Under the pieces are notes generated by a model. It saw nothing but the letters and a program-made list of their open reading frames with translations. It had not been told where the DNA came from and made no database searches. From the NCBI GenBank assembly GCA_020848615.1, contig JADLHW010000035.1, positions 1 through 64,000 on the forward strand: a stretch of 64,000 bases of DNA, read 5' to 3'. The translations under genes were made by a program, and so were the position numbers. Of this stretch, positions 36,094 through 42,364 are shown one piece after another. This stretch comes from Thermoleophilia bacterium (GTDB taxonomy: Bacteria > Actinomycetota > Thermoleophilia > Miltoncostaeales > Miltoncostaeaceae). The first letter of the stretch is position 1. Every line of letters begins with the position of its first letter.

Positions 36094-36906
36094 GTGAGGT
36101 CGCTGTTCGGGGTCGTCGCCGCCGTGATGGTGGCGGCGACCCTGGCGTTCCTGGTCCTCCCCATCGCGGCCATCTTCATCCGGGTCCCGCCGGGCGACCT
36201 CTACACGTCCGACCTGGCCCTCGACGCGCTGCGGGTGACCGCCTGGACGAGTCTGTGGGCGAACGTCGCGTTCCTGATCGTGGGGACCCCGGCCGCCTAC
36301 CTGCTCGCCACCCGGCGGTTCCCCGGGCGGGCCGTCGTCATCACCCTGTGCGAGCTGCCGCTGGTGCTGCCGCCCACCGTGGCCGGCGTGGGGCTGCTGG
36401 TGGCGTTCGGCCGCTTCGGCATCCTGTCGGACCAGATGGCGTTCCTCGGGCTCGCCATCCCGTTCACCCAGATCGCCGTGATCATGGCGGTGGCGTTCGT
36501 CGCAGGCCCCTACTACCTGCGCGGGGCCACCGCGGCGTTCGACGCGATCGACCGGGACTGCGTGGACGCCGCACGCACCCTGGGCGCGGGCCCCGCACGG
36601 GTGTTCGCACGCATCGCGATCCCCATGGCCATGGGCGGGCTGGGGTCATCGTGGGCCATCGCGTTCGCCCGGGGCGTGGGCGAGTTCGGGGCCACCATCA
36701 TCTTCGCCGGGTCCCTGCAGGGCGTCACCCAGACGCTGCCGCTGGCGGTGTACGCCCAGTTCCAGTCCGACTTCGACGCGGCGCTCGCCATCGGCGGCCT
36801 CCTGGTGATCTTCGCCGCCACCGTCCTGCTCCTCGTCAAACTGCTCTCGGCATGGCAGACGCGCTCCAGATCCGCATCGCGGTCCCCCGGCGCCGCTTCC
36901 GCGTAA
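36094..36906 (+). CDS. modB: Molybdate ABC transporter permease
   Basis: A 270-residue membrane protein with about six helices and the ABC-permease EAA loop reading DCVDAARTLGAGPARVFARIAIP. LPLVLPPTVAGVGLLVAFGR and AFARGVGEFGATIIFAGSLQGVTQTLPLAVY are typical ModB segments. The start is GTG 36094. It overlaps the ATPase gene by 55 bases, so the two are tightly coupled. Confidence 0.9.
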   Translation: MRSLFGVVAAVMVAATLAFLVLPIAAIFIRVPPGDLYTSDLALDALRVTAWTSLWANVAFLIVGTPAAYLLATRRFPGRAVVITLCELPLVLPPTVAGVGLLVAFGRFGILSDQMAFLGLAIPFTQIAVIMAVAFVAGPYYLRGATAAFDAIDRDCVDAARTLGAGPARVFARIAIPMAMGGLGSSWAIAFARGVGEFGATIIFAGSLQGVTQTLPLAVYAQFQSDFDAALAIGGLLVIFAATVLLLVKLLSAWQTRSRSASRSPGAASA

Positions 36907-37583
36907 CCGCGGAGCTCGAGGTCGCGTCCGAAACGCTGGTGCTCGTGGGGCCCTCCGGGGCGGGCAAGAGCACGGTGCTGCGCGCCGTCGCCGGGCTGGA
37001 GCGCCCGCGGGAGGGGCGCGTGGCCGTGGGCGACGAGGTGTGGTTCGACTCGGGACGTCGCGTGAACCTGCCGCCGGACCGGCGCTCGGTGGGCCTGGTG
37101 TTCCAGCAGTACGCCCTGTTCCCGCACATGACGGTGCTCGGCAACGTGCGGTTCGGCGGCCGCGCCGGAGCGGAGGAGCTGCTGGAGCGGCTCGGTATCG
37201 CGCACCTGGCGTCCGCCCGCCCCGCCGAGATCTCCGGGGGCGAGCGCCAGCGGGTCGCCCTCGCCCGGGCGCTGTCGCGCCGTCCCCGGGTGCTGCTGCT
37301 GGACGAGCCCATGGCCGCCCTCGACCCGCACACGCGCGACGCGGTCCGCGCCGAGCTGCGGGGCACGCTCGCGGAGCTGGGCCTGCCCACCGTGATCGTG
37401 AGCCACGACTTCGAGGACGCCGTGGCGCTGGCCAACCGTGTGGCGGTGATGGACACCGGCCGGATCGTGCAGACCGGCACGGCACGGGAACTCGCCGGAT
37501 CCCCCGCCACCGCCTTCGTGGAGGCCCTCACGCGCCGGCACCGCACCGACGACGGGTTGCGCGGCCCCGACCCCCCGGCGTAG
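36852..37583 (+). CDS. modC: Molybdate ABC transporter ATPase
   Basis: The 243-residue ATPase has Walker A GPSGAGKST, the Q-loop FQQYALFPHMTV, signature EISGGERQRVALARAL, Walker B VLLLDEPMAALD and switch histidine in VSHDFEDA. It lacks the C-terminal TOBE (Mop) domain found in many ModC proteins, which is instead provided by the next gene. ATG 36852 lies inside modB; an earlier in-frame start would antisense nothing but would put permease-coding DNA in the wrong frame. Confidence 0.88.
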   Translation: MADALQIRIAVPRRRFRVTAELEVASETLVLVGPSGAGKSTVLRAVAGLERPREGRVAVGDEVWFDSGRRVNLPPDRRSVGLVFQQYALFPHMTVLGNVRFGGRAGAEELLERLGIAHLASARPAEISGGERQRVALARALSRRPRVLLLDEPMAALDPHTRDAVRAELRGTLAELGLPTVIVSHDFEDAVALANRVAVMDTGRIVQTGTARELAGSPATAFVEALTRRHRTDDGLRGPDPPA

Positions 37584-37595
37584 CCTGCCCGCCCG

Positions 37596-37973
37596 ATGGC
37601 CGACGAGCGCACCTACTCCGCCAGCGAGGCCGCCCGCGCCCTGGGCATCAGCCTCGACACGCTCCGGCGGTGGGACCGCGCGGGGCGCATCGCCGTGCAC
37701 CGCGACACCGCCAACCGCCGCATCGTGGACGCATCGGAGATCGACCGGCTGCGGGGCGAGCGCGGCACGTCGATGAGCGCCCGCAACCGGTTCCCCGGCA
37801 CCGTCCGGTCGGTTACGGCCGAGGGCCTGCTCACACGCGTGGAGATCGACGTCACCGAGCCGGTGCGCGTGGTGGCGATCATCACCTCCGAGGCCGCCGA
37901 GGATCTGGGCCTGCGCCCCGGCGGCCCGGCGACCGCGGTCGTGAAGGCCACCTCGGTGATGGTGTCCGGCTGA
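37596..37973 (+). CDS. MerR-type helix-turn-helix fused to a molybdate-binding TOBE (Mop) domain
   Basis: The 125-residue protein joins a MerR-like DNA-binding part, YSASEAARALGISLDTLRRW-DRAGRI (residues 7-32), to a Mop domain, SARNRFPGTVRSV and LLTRVEIDVTEPVRVVAIITSEAAEDLGL (about 61-110), which binds molybdate or tungstate. Proteins of this pattern act as molybdate-responsive regulators or storage proteins. TAGCCT (37581-37586) overlaps the modC stop and lies 9 bases before the ATG, so a nearly leaderless extra transcript is possible. Likely control of the modABC operon is inferred. Confidence 0.83.
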   Translation: MADERTYSASEAARALGISLDTLRRWDRAGRIAVHRDTANRRIVDASEIDRLRGERGTSMSARNRFPGTVRSVTAEGLLTRVEIDVTEPVRVVAIITSEAAEDLGLRPGGPATAVVKATSVMVSG

Positions 37974-38997
37974 CGCCCCCGGGCAGGAGCAGCATGGTGT
38001 CGCCGAACTCGTGCCACAGGTAAGCCGCCGTGACGGCCGCGTAGGCCTCGGCCACCGCCGCCGGGCCGGCGACCGCCTCGATGAGCATGCGGTGGCTCGC
38101 CCGCGGTTCGTGGAGGCCCGTCACCAGGCCGTCCACCACCCGGGCGGGCCGGTCCGGGCCCAGCACCAGGTCCGTCCACCCGGACGCCGGCCGCACCCGG
38201 CCCGCCCCGGACGCGGCGCTCTCGAGCGCCCGGGCGGCGGTGGTGCCCACGGCGATCACGCGGCGCCCGGCACGGCGCGCGCTCTCCGCCAGCCGGGCCG
38301 TGTCGGCGGGCACGGCGAACCGCTCCGCCTGGGGCGGCTCGTGCGCCTCCGGGCTGGAGACGCCGGCGTGCAGGAGCACGGGCGCGAGGGTCACCCCCGC
38401 GGAGACCAGGCGGGCGAGGAGCCGCCCGCTGAACGGCCGGCCCGCGCTCGGCATCTCGGCGCTGCCCGGATGCGCGGCGAACACCGTCTGGTGGTCCCGC
38501 AGGCGGGTGGGCCCGTCCAGGTACCCGTAGCCGATGGGCCGCCCGTGGCGCGCCAGGTACTCCGCGGCGGACACCGGCGGGCATACGGACGCGCGCCACA
38601 GGCGGGTCTCGCCGGCCGCCGCCCCCGGATGCGGGGCGAGCAGCCGCACCTCGGCGCCGTCCGGCAGCCGCAGCACCTCGCCCGCGTCACGCGCGAGGTC
38701 GGGGCCGCCGCCGCCGGGCAGACGCACCTCCACCACCCAGTCGCCGTCGGCGATCACGGCGGACACGTGCAGCGGGCGGGGCTCGCCGCGCTCCGGCCGG
38801 GCCGTGAGCGCGGCGGGGATCGTCGCCGAGGTGTTGACGATCAGGAGGTCACCGGGCAGGAGCTCGGCCGGCAGGTCCCGGAAGCGGCGGTGCGCGACCG
38901 CCCCGGGGCGCCACACGAGCATCCGCACGCCGTCCCGCGCGACGCCGCGGCGCTCCGGCGGCGCCGTGGCCTCCCGCACCGGCGCGGGCGCGGTCAC
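37882..38997 (-). CDS. QueA-like S-adenosylmethionine:tRNA ribosyltransferase-isomerase
   Basis: The 371-residue protein matches QueA overall: RDLPAELLPGDLLIVNTSAT at the place of the QueA N-D-T-R motif, RHGRPIGYGYLDGP, TVFAAHPGSAEMPSAGRPFSG, VGTTAARALES and LVTGLHEPRASHRMLIEAVAG, ending with EFGDTMLLLPG. QueA makes epoxyqueuosine in tRNA, but no other queuosine gene is visible and the NDTR motif is altered. Both facts fit an actinobacterial QueA-like branch of uncertain role. The last 30 residues, rich in R, P and S, lie antisense to the MerR-TOBE gene (92-bp overlap) and look like read-through. Confidence 0.75.
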   Translation of the reverse strand: MTAPAPVREATAPPERRGVARDGVRMLVWRPGAVAHRRFRDLPAELLPGDLLIVNTSATIPAALTARPERGEPRPLHVSAVIADGDWVVEVRLPGGGGPDLARDAGEVLRLPDGAEVRLLAPHPGAAAGETRLWRASVCPPVSAAEYLARHGRPIGYGYLDGPTRLRDHQTVFAAHPGSAEMPSAGRPFSGRLLARLVSAGVTLAPVLLHAGVSSPEAHEPPQAERFAVPADTARLAESARRAGRRVIAVGTTAARALESAASGAGRVRPASGWTDLVLGPDRPARVVDGLVTGLHEPRASHRMLIEAVAGPAAVAEAYAAVTAAYLWHEFGDTMLLLPGGVSRTPSPRWPSRPRSPGRRGAGPDPRRPRR

Positions 38998-39704
38998 GCC
39001 GGCACCGCCGGCATTCCCGCGGCGATGTACCGGCCACCGGGCAGATCGCCCTCCAGGAGCCGCACCACCGCGGGCGCGACATCGTCCGGCGCCGCCCGGT
39101 CCGAGAGGTCCTCGCCGGGCATCGCCGCCCGCAGCATGGCGGTGTCCATCTCCCCGGGGTCGAGGGCGTAGACGCGCAGCGACGGATGCTCCACCGCGAC
39201 GACGGCGGTGAGCAACTCCAGCGCGGCCTTGCTGGCGCCGTACCCGCCCCAGCCCTCGTACGCGGCGACCGCCGCATCCGAGGTCATGAGCACCACCCGC
39301 CCGCCGGCCGCCTCCAGCTGCGGCAGCACCCGGGCCAGCATCGCCACCGGCGCGACGGCGTTCACCGCGAACAGGCGCTCGAGGTCGGCGGCGGGGTGGT
39401 CCTCCAGCCGGGGCGGCGGGGCGACGCCCAGCGCCGCCGCGCACGCGACCATCGCGTCCAGCCGGCCGAGCGCCCGGACGGCCTCCCCCAGCGCGCGGCG
39501 GTGAGCCGGATCGGCCTGGTCGCCTGGCACGGCGGTCACCGTGCCGGGCCCCGGCGCGGACGCCGCCGCCCGCGCCAGGGCCGCCGGGTCCCGGCCGTCG
39601 GCGACCACGCGGTATCCGCGGACGGTCAGCGCGTGCGCCACGGCCCGGCCCAGGCCGCGGGACGCCCCGGTGACCAGCGCCACCGGCATCGTGCTCGTGT
39701 CCAT
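38994..39704 (-). CDS. Short-chain dehydrogenase/reductase, probable SoxR target
   Basis: A 236-residue SDR: VALVTGASRGLGRAVA (cofactor loop), the catalytic serine in VVLMTSDAAVA, and YGASKAALELL with Y and K four residues apart. The ATG at 39704 has GGGAGG upstream; a longer frame would cross the promoter. It overlaps the QueA-like gene by 4 bases (GTGA), making a two-gene operon. The promoter carries a SoxR box in a 19-bp spacer, so induction by redox-cycling compounds is expected. The substrate, perhaps a quinone or carbonyl, is unknown. Confidence 0.82.
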   Translation of the reverse strand: MDTSTMPVALVTGASRGLGRAVAHALTVRGYRVVADGRDPAALARAAASAPGPGTVTAVPGDQADPAHRRALGEAVRALGRLDAMVACAAALGVAPPPRLEDHPAADLERLFAVNAVAPVAMLARVLPQLEAAGGRVVLMTSDAAVAAYEGWGGYGASKAALELLTAVVAVEHPSLRVYALDPGEMDTAMLRAAMPGEDLSDRAAPDDVAPAVVRLLEGDLPGGRYIAAGMPAVPA

Positions 39705-39737
39705 CGGTCCCTCCCATCCGAGGTGTGCCACGATGGG

Positions 39738-39768
39738 ACCGTACGAGTTCAAGTGCACTTGAGGTCAA
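39738..39768 (-). promoter_or_regulatory. SoxR-controlled promoter of the dehydrogenase operon
   Basis: On the minus strand TTGACC (39763-39768) and TACGGT (39738-39743) are 19 bases apart, the long spacer typical of MerR/SoxR-activated promoters. The spacer contains CAAGTGCACTTG, and one arm extends to ACTTGAGG on the plus strand, close to the E. coli SoxR box CCTCAAGT/ACTTGAGG. The -10 element ends 33 bases before the dehydrogenase ATG. Confidence 0.75.
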
Positions 39769-39778
39769 GGGGTGTGCG

Positions 39779-40240
39779 ATGGGATCCGAAGCGGCGCTTC
39801 CGATCGGGGTGGTCTCGGCCCGCGCGGGCGTCGCCGCGTCCGCGCTGCGGTTCTACGAGGAGCGGGGGCTCATCGCGTCCGTGCGGTCCCCCGGCGGACG
39901 GCGGGCCTACGACCGCAGCGTCCTGCGGCGGCTGGCGTTCATCCGCGCCGCTCAGAACGTGGGGCTCGGCCTGGCCGAGATCGGTGAGGCCATGGCCGCC
40001 CTGCCCGACGGCCGGCCCCCCACGCCCGGGGACTGGTCGCGCCTGGCCCGCGCGTGGGGCCCGCGCCTGGACGCCCGGATCGCGGCGCTGCAGGCCCTGC
40101 GCGACGGGCTGGACGGGTGCATCGGCTGCGGCTGCCTGTCGGCGGAGCGCTGCCCCCTCGCGAACCCCGGGGACCGGGCCGCCGCGCGCGGCCCGGGCGC
40201 CGCGTACCTACCGCCGCTCCTGCGCCGCGCCATCCGGTGA
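39779..40240 (+). CDS. soxR: SoxR redox-sensing regulator
   Basis: The 153-residue MerR-family protein has the helix-turn-helix IGVVSARAGVAASALRFYEE and the [2Fe-2S] ligands C114, C117, C119 and C125 in the exact C-x2-C-x-C-x5-C spacing of SoxR. Oxidation of this cluster turns SoxR into an activator. ATG 39779 is preceded by AAGGGG. No soxS is present, as in actinomycetes generally, where SoxR directly controls a few oxidoreductases. The divergent dehydrogenase with its SoxR box is the evident target. The stop overlaps the convergent GGDEF gene by 33 bases. Confidence 0.93.
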   Translation: MGSEAALPIGVVSARAGVAASALRFYEERGLIASVRSPGGRRAYDRSVLRRLAFIRAAQNVGLGLAEIGEAMAALPDGRPPTPGDWSRLARAWGPRLDARIAALQALRDGLDGCIGCGCLSAERCPLANPGDRAAARGPGAAYLPPLLRRAIR

Positions 40241-42070
40241 GCCCGACCGGGCCCCGGGGTTCGCCAGGGGATCCGGGGGCGCGACCGGGAGGAGCCCCGA
40301 CACCCACAACCGCTCCAGCGCCGCCACCACGCGGGGGCAGAACTGCGCCTCGGCGCCCCGGCGGCATTCGGACACCGCGGCCTCCACGTCCAGCGGACCG
40401 CGGTACCCGCGCATCGAGGTCATCGCGTCGAACGCGTCGGCGAGCGCGAGGATCCGGGCGCCCACCGACAGGCGCGCGCCGCCGACGCCGTCCGGGTAGC
40501 CGGCGCCGTCCGGCCGCTCGTGGTGGTGGCGCACCCACTCCACCTGCTCCGGGCCCAGGGCCTCGGCCACGATCTCCGCGCCCAGCGCCGCATGCTCCCG
40601 CACCCGGCGGCGTTCCTCGGGGGTGAGCGGGCCGGGCTTGAGCAGCACGCTGTCCGGCACCCCGATCTTCCCGACGTCGTGCACCAGCCCGGCCTGGTGC
40701 AGCAGCAGGGCCTCCTCCCGCGGCCAGCCCAGCGCCAGCCCCAGCTCGTGCGCCAGCGCCGCCACGCGCTCGGAGTGCCGCTGGGTGGACGGGTCGCGCG
40801 CGTCGACCGCCCGGGCCAGCAGGCGGATGCCGCTGAGCGCCCGGCCCCGGGCGATGCGCCGGGCCTGCTCGTGGCCGGACACCACCTCGGTGATCTCCGG
40901 CGTGTATCGCACCGCCCCGTCCCGGTGGGAGTGCTGGGCGGCATACAGCGCGATGTGCGTCTTGCGCTGCAGGTCGCGCGGCCCGTCCGGGGCGTGGCGC
41001 AGGTCGCACACGCCCGCCGACACGGTGAGGTGCCCGGCGCCGGGGAACGGCGCGGCCTGGAGGGCGTCGCGGGCGCGGACGGCGGCGGCGAGGGCCCCCT
41101 CCGAGCCCGACTCCGGCACCACCCAGGCGAACTCGTCCCCGGCGACCCGCGCGACCACCGCCTCCGGCGGCGCGCACCCCCGCAGGCGCTCCCCCACCTG
41201 CCGCAGCACCTCGTCGCCGCCGGCGTGCCCCAGCCGGTCGTTGACGTCCCCGAACCCGTCCACGTCGAACAGCACCAGCGACACCTCGCCGTCGCGGCAC
41301 CGGGCCCGCGCCACCTCCACGGTGAGGCGCTCCTCGAACGCCCGGCGGCTGAGGAGACCCGTGAGCGGGTCGGTGCCCGCCCCGGCCCGCTCCGCGGCGC
41401 GGGCGGCGGCACCGGCCACCGCCATCCCCACCAGCTCCCCCAGCTCCGCCAGGCGGTCCTCGGCGCCCGGCGCGAACGCCGCGTCCTCACGGGTCGACAG
41501 CGCCAGCAGCCCGCCCCACAGCACCCCGCCCCACCGGATGGGCGCGGCGATGCCCGACCGGTACACCGGGTCGACGGTGCGCGCCGAGTCGGGGTCCGTC
41601 GCCCGGAGCTCCCCGTAGTCGTCCACCCGCGCGGGGCGGCCGGTGGCGGCGACCACCGCCATCGTCCGCCGGCCCCTGAGGCTGAAGCACTCCCCCACCT
41701 CGGCGCCCACGCCCCAGGTGCCCACCACCTGCGCCATGCCGTCCCGGAACCTGGCGACCCGGCCGCCGTCCGCGCCGAACGCGGTGGCCACCACCTCCGC
41801 CACCAGCGTCAGCACGGCCGCCGGGTCGCCCTCCGCGGCCACGACCTCCGCGACCCGCCGCAGCAGCCGGTCGCGCTCCGCCTCCCATGTGGGCCACCAC
41901 GCCCGCGGGGCGATGGCGCCCACGGAGATGCCGGCGCCGGCCCCGGCCGCCGCGCGGAACGCGGCGTTGGCGCTCACCACGCGGCCCTCGGCGTCGAGGG
42001 TGATGCGCGGCTCCTCGGCGCGGTGCGCGACCGGCGCCGCCTGGGTCGGGTGAGGCACGTCCTGGGGCAT
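40208..42070 (-). CDS. GAF-GGDEF-HD-GYP cyclic-di-GMP signalling protein
   Basis: A 620-residue protein. A short PAS-like N-terminus (ITLDAEGRVVSANAAFRAAA) is followed by a GAF domain (about 95-255), a GGDEF domain with DPLTGLLSRRAFEERL and the site motif RVAGDEFAW (A in the first position), then an HD-GYP domain with VHDVGKIGVPD and GAGYPDG. It thus has synthase-type and hydrolase-type domains for cyclic di-GMP in one chain. AGDEF sites can be active, and the HD-GYP motifs are complete. The ATG 42070 is chosen for its GGAG site. No membrane segment is seen. Confidence 0.87.
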   Translation of the reverse strand: MPQDVPHPTQAAPVAHRAEEPRITLDAEGRVVSANAAFRAAAGAGAGISVGAIAPRAWWPTWEAERDRLLRRVAEVVAAEGDPAAVLTLVAEVVATAFGADGGRVARFRDGMAQVVGTWGVGAEVGECFSLRGRRTMAVVAATGRPARVDDYGELRATDPDSARTVDPVYRSGIAAPIRWGGVLWGGLLALSTREDAAFAPGAEDRLAELGELVGMAVAGAAARAAERAGAGTDPLTGLLSRRAFEERLTVEVARARCRDGEVSLVLFDVDGFGDVNDRLGHAGGDEVLRQVGERLRGCAPPEAVVARVAGDEFAWVVPESGSEGALAAAVRARDALQAAPFPGAGHLTVSAGVCDLRHAPDGPRDLQRKTHIALYAAQHSHRDGAVRYTPEITEVVSGHEQARRIARGRALSGIRLLARAVDARDPSTQRHSERVAALAHELGLALGWPREEALLLHQAGLVHDVGKIGVPDSVLLKPGPLTPEERRRVREHAALGAEIVAEALGPEQVEWVRHHHERPDGAGYPDGVGGARLSVGARILALADAFDAMTSMRGYRGPLDVEAAVSECRRGAEAQFCPRVVAALERLWVSGLLPVAPPDPLANPGARSGSPDGAAQERR

Positions 42071-42364
42071 CGGTCGTCGGACTCCGAGTATCGCTCCGAA
42101 CGCCGCGATGCACATCCGTTGCGCCTCGGCGGTTCCACGGGCGCGCCTCACGGGTTGGACGCGGCCAAATGCGGGGGTCCGCGGGACGGATTGTCCGGCC
42201 TCACTGCCCCCGGACCCTCCGGGGCAAACCAATTCGATTGCGTATCAGATTGAAGCGACGCTCCGCTAATGTCGGCCGGGATGGCGCCGACCAAGGAGCC
42301 ATCGCGTGTTGGTGGCCGGTATCTGCGGGGGTCCGGCCACCAGCACACGCCCATGGCCCCGGGG
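42071..42364. other. Intergenic region with a strong hairpin
   Basis: No gene is seen. Near 42230-42290 lies an A+T-richer patch that may carry the promoter of the GGDEF/HD-GYP gene, though no clear -35/-10 pair is visible. TGGTGGCCGG (42310-42319) pairs with CCGGCCACCA (42333-42342), with GTGT/ACAC continuing the stem after a bulge. This hairpin lies just behind the GNAT gene and may end its transcript. Confidence 0.45.

Follow-up and report, generated by a model that had tools for sequence, protein, structure and literature searches.

The locus described here raises two linked questions: whether a SoxR regulator controls the adjacent, divergently oriented pair of genes coding for a short-chain dehydrogenase/reductase (SDR) and a QueA-like protein, and what a homologue of QueA would do in such a redox response. 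The window, i.e., the whole stretch of 64,000 nucleotides that was analysed, contains the following features at this locus, with coordinates of the window and, in brackets, of the minus strand as read.

37882..38997, minus strand: QueA-like protein (PF02547, 215.7 bits); the homologous part spans about 37981-38997
38994..38997, minus strand: 4-nt overlap GTGA of the SDR stop and the QueA-like start; the same overlap occurs in 70 of 78 homologous loci
38994..39704, minus strand: SDR, 236 aa from the ATG (PF00106, 119.6 bits; conservation in 78 homologues)
39729..39731 (39731-39729), minus strand: GTG as a candidate leaderless start for the SDR, 6 nt past the -10 element and sharing the reading frame of the ATG at 39704
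39738..39743 (39743-39738), minus strand: -10 element TACGGT, from the sequence; nearly all 24 loci have nAnnnT at this spacing
39747..39764 (39764-39747), minus-strand reading: SoxR box (dyad) CCTCAAGTGCACTTGAAC, 18 bp, lying across the 19-bp spacer
39763..39768 (39768-39763), minus strand: -35 element TTGACC, from the sequence; cTTGA invariant in 24 of 24 SoxR-linked loci
39779..40240, plus strand: soxR, a 153-aa MerR-family [2Fe-2S] sensor (TIGR01950; PDB 2zhg)

The regulator, its box and the first gene of the operon

The soxR product scored 189.6 bits against the curated SoxR model TIGR01950 (cut-off 116.9), its closest PDB entry was E. coli SoxR (2zhg, E=4e-44), and its cluster motif CIGCGCLSAERC has the [2Fe-2S] spacing CX2CXCX5C, in agreement with the initial annotation, which had named the divergent gene a SoxR with all four cluster cysteines. 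The gene is transcribed divergently from the minus-strand SDR/QueA-like pair. At its 3' end, soxR is overlapped by the end of a minus-strand ORF coding for a GAF-GGDEF-HD protein (window 40208-42232).

On the minus strand of the window sequence, TTGACC and TACGGT are separated by exactly 19 bp, with the SoxR dyad (core CAAGTGCACTTG) between them, as had been claimed, so that the dyad lies within the overlong -35/-10 spacer typical of SoxR-activated promoters. The dyad differed from the E. coli-type box that served as the SoxR search pattern, CCTCAAGTNNACTTGAGG, by 2 mismatches in 16 defined positions. It was the sole match in the window at up to 2 mismatches (0.01 expected from shuffles), and also the sole match in the 3.64-Mb genome when up to 3 were allowed; at the latter threshold, a control pattern read in reverse matched 8 times per strand genome-wide. 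Taken alone, the genome-wide dyad count is weak and not extreme, and the case is carried by position and conservation. The dyad edge facing soxR and the soxR ATG are 14 bp apart, which makes autoregulation of soxR through the same dyad likely.

The SDR carries TGASRGLG, which conforms to the TGxxxGxG motif of classical SDRs, and retains N115, S142, Y155, and K159, positions that are 96-100% conserved among the 78 homologues; the NNAG-type motif is altered in this copy. Solved structures returned generic SDR matches only and did not narrow the substrate. The SDR ATG is located about 6-7 nt past the -10 element in many relatives, which suggests that the SDR mRNA is leaderless in these. Read from the sequence, the 4-nt GTGA overlap is a translational coupling of the SDR with the QueA-like gene.

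Conservation and loss of the arrangement among relatives

With one genome scanned per species, 80 QueA-like relatives were obtained, nearly all of them from Actinomycetota. In 78 of the 80 loci the SDR gene immediately preceded the QueA-like gene, the remaining two being cut by contig ends, and wherever a locus was long enough to contain both genes they were found together. Besides SoxR, no third conserved partner was detected across distant genera in the 80 loci. A larger gene cluster was likewise considered and ruled out, as no neighbour beyond SoxR was recurrent. Among plasmid records, one likely member of the subfamily was found, in Nonomuraea (47% identical). The pair in Actinacidiphila and Streptomyces (L102-L124) was mostly divergent from a GAF-domain-like gene, possibly coding for a sensor kinase (named by eye).

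A divergent SoxR was present in 23 other loci with the same order SoxR / dyad / SDR / QueA-like, belonging to Geodermatophilaceae, Frankiaceae, Jatrophihabitans, Smaragdicoccus, a member of Pseudonocardiales, a member of Streptosporangiales, and unclassified MAGs. All 22 adjacent SoxRs with a complete sequence have the cluster motif CX2CXCX5C. Of 22 carrier genomes tested, 20 encode a SoxR that scored above the cut-off, mostly unlinked to the pair. In the window and the 23 other SoxR-linked loci, cTTGA is followed by the 18-bp dyad, 4 nt, and a -10 element nAnnnT (mostly nACGnT), resulting in a 19-bp spacer. Promoters were scored on TTGA, the dyad core (of 12), and A...T at fixed distance: a core of at least 9/12 was found in 22 of the 23 SoxR-linked loci and in 0 of 2,300 shuffles, none of which exceeded 7. 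A chance dyad was ruled out by its conservation across loci and by the shuffles. That this gene order and this promoter spacing recur in 23 other loci strongly supports SoxR control of the operon, and SoxR very probably regulates the SDR/QueA-like operon of the window.

The promoter layout extends in part to loci that have no neighbouring SoxR. With a core of at least 5, it was detected in 32 of 53 SoxR-unlinked loci vs. 5 of 5,300 shuffles, and some SoxR-unlinked loci of Actinomycetospora and Nocardia had altered dyad cores. The variant dyad of one Actinomycetospora soxR promoter resembles the dyad of its SDR promoter (L141, L057, L067: CCTGGACCATGGTCGAGG; CCTCGACAATCGTTGAGG), and this shared variant suggests that the box co-evolved with a SoxR acting in trans in this genus. 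The SoxR-type architecture was absent from the Streptomyces/Actinacidiphila and Ilumatobacteraceae copies of the pair; the former indicate that the enzyme pair is usable without SoxR.

In a tree of SDR plus QueA-like sequences, the window grouped with a relative from its own family (G025), adjoining Geodermatophilaceae. Adjacency to SoxR changes at least five times on this tree, and the link is therefore not obligatory; in G025 the SDR/QueA-like pair is present and SoxR is not nearby. The copy of another relative, G012 (L024:7055-8548), is decayed, with parts of both SDR and QueA-like genes missing or out of frame. In G019 and G022 (L026, L027), a SoxR gene with a decayed dyad directly abuts a glycosyltransferase/TPR-like gene, which is the gene found downstream of the QueA-like gene in G025 and G012. 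This layout looks like the scar of an earlier SoxR/SDR/QueA-like order from which the pair was apparently lost. Within the window's family, the unit is being lost.

The QueA-like protein and queuosine synthesis

The PF02547 domain of the QueA-like protein was accompanied by a QueA fold: its AlphaFold model (pLDDT 90) matched QueA entries only in the PDB (E 1e-19 to 1e-20). Identity to true QueA was about 30-37%. Scores with the QueA equivalog models were below the cut-offs (153.5 vs. 324 and 122.9 vs. 267.45 bits). Homology stops near 37981 while the ORF continues to 37882; its last ~32 residues are read-on over the antisense 3' end of the gene at 37596-37973. The latter codes for a MerR-HTH plus TOBE protein and follows molybdate-type ABC transporter genes (together window 36094-37973).

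A comparison of 81 QueA-like with 18 true QueA proteins of the same class revealed about 17 positions with different invariant residues. The QueA-like proteins lack residues that are invariant in true QueA (in AAPTAGLHF, GLGTFRP, TNFHLP, and others): the AAPTAGLHF, GLGTFRP, TNFHLP, and YRF regions read AEMPSAGRPF, VSSPExHEPP, TGLHEPxASH, and YLWHEFGD, and the region after LHxG differs too. Many other conserved positions are common to both groups. According to a 2023 review, how SAM and tRNA bind QueA is still unclear (PMC10491745), which for now precludes assigning roles to the replaced residues, E181, R187-P188, H302, and W328-H329-E330 among them.

The window's genome (96% complete) has a single PF02547 gene, and TGT, QueC, and QueG were not found in it, leaving no TGT to supply preQ1-tRNA. 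TGT was also not found in 27 of 33 other genomes carrying the QueA-like gene. Five of the six carriers with TGT, mostly Nocardiaceae, have no other PF02547 gene, and a queuosine role is formally conceivable in these five. The sixth, G080 (L161, L173, L174), a MAG in which mixing is possible, has a true QueA (366.8 bits) adjoining TGT plus two separate SoxR/SDR/QueA-like units. The initial annotation had suggested that the operon links redox stress to tRNA modification or to another QueA-type reaction. SoxR control of the operon was strongly supported. The tRNA-modification link was not supported, given the missing TGT, QueC, and QueG, the scores below cut-off, the distinct conserved residues, and the one genome in which QueA-like genes coexist with a true QueA next to TGT; a queuosine function was ruled out on pathway genes, equivalog cut-offs, and residues. 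Another QueA-type reaction was the better half of the proposal. Most genomes with the QueA-like gene lack the remainder of the queuosine pathway, so its product probably performs an undescribed reaction.

Proposed function, alternatives, and known systems

SoxR promoters of this layout are already known. In Stenotrophomonas maltophilia, SoxR bound in the 19-bp spacer of mfsA activates upon oxidation of its cluster, and the divergent soxR, whose start is overlapped by the box, is repressed (PMC4411124). In Streptomyces, redox enzymes are direct targets of SoxR, which activates them upon exposure to redox-active antibiotics (PMC4146615). By analogy, the SoxR of the window is expected to act as these do. 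Reduced SoxR would sit on the dyad within the overlong spacer until redox-active compounds oxidise its [2Fe-2S] cluster and the promoter is remodelled, which would switch on the SDR and, by way of the overlapping stop and start codons, the QueA-like enzyme; repression by SoxR of its own gene, which starts 14 bp from the dyad, is probable as well. We infer that the QueA-like enzyme probably still uses SAM and shares one substrate with the SDR; the most likely candidate is a small molecule, redox-active or electrophilic, that would be modified or detoxified.

On this basis, we consider it likely that the locus is a SoxR-activated operon of two genes, an SDR and a neofunctionalised, non-queuosine enzyme of the QueA fold that would act on a small molecule. 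More tentatively, as a serious possibility somewhat short of probable, the QueA-like proteins may form a separate enzyme family whose members, together with the SDR, move a ribosyl or other group derived from SAM onto a substrate other than tRNA, in a SoxR-induced response to redox-active compounds.

The main alternative to small-molecule modification is a new modification of nucleic acid, in which the product of the QueA-like enzyme is a novel modified nucleobase or nucleotide (in RNA, in DNA, or free). The many conserved positions in common with QueA, whose known substrate is a 7-deazaguanine in tRNA, would fit this; the deazaguanine synthesis gene QueC is absent from the window's genome, however, and the sole constant partner of the QueA-like gene is an SDR, which leaves this explanation unlikely. 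It appears less probable still that the dyad serves autoregulation of soxR only, or that SoxR controls the SDR with the QueA-like gene as a passenger. The short distance between dyad and soxR ATG, and the decay of the pair in one family relative and its loss in two, would fit such explanations, whereas the dyad lies exactly between the SDR -35 and -10 elements in all linked loci, a site of matching architecture is retained in loci without a neighbouring SoxR, and the two overlapping genes stay together in every locus long enough to tell. Last, that the protein is a real QueA through which SoxR ties redox stress to queuosine in tRNA is very improbable: the shared Pfam family and fold, and its being the only PF02547 protein in five TGT-bearing genomes, are outweighed by the pathway genes missing from the window's genome, the absence of TGT from most carriers, the scores under the QueA cut-offs, the ~17 invariant differences, and its coexistence with a true QueA-TGT pair elsewhere in one genome.

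To our knowledge, the QueA fold has so far been linked to one tRNA-modifying step. If the QueA-like enzyme indeed uses SAM on another substrate, this would be a second type of reaction for the fold, and a separate family would mean new SAM chemistry outside queuosine synthesis. The gene is present in many actinobacterial genomes; general family searches label it as queuosine synthesis, although most carrier genomes appear unable to make queuosine. The conserved SoxR promoter and the constant SDR partner offer a handle on when the gene is used, and the operon would add a target class to the actinobacterial SoxR regulon. A limited search of the literature returned neither a SoxR with a QueA homologue or an SDR/QueA-like operon as target nor a subfamily of QueA that stands outside the queuosine pathway, an absence that is no proof.

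The arrangement shares with the SoxR-soxS and SoxR-mfsA systems of E. coli and Stenotrophomonas the divergent soxR and an 18-bp dyad in a 19-bp spacer near the soxR start. Unlike in these, the target is an SDR/QueA-like operon rather than a regulator or an efflux pump, the -10 element is mostly nACnnT, and many of the target mRNAs appear leaderless. The SoxR regulon of S. coelicolor (ecaA-D, SCO2478, SCO0320ext) is similar in that an actinobacterial SoxR directly activates redox enzymes through soxboxes in their promoters (PMC4146615), whereas its six targets include no SDR/QueA-like pair, and the Streptomyces and Actinacidiphila copies of the pair found here are without the promoter architecture. 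With QueA itself, the SAM:tRNA ribosyltransferase-isomerase (PF02547), the QueA-like protein has in common the fold, many residues, and about 30-37% identity; it differs in falling under the equivalog cut-offs, in the replacement of four regions, and in being carried mostly by genomes without TGT.
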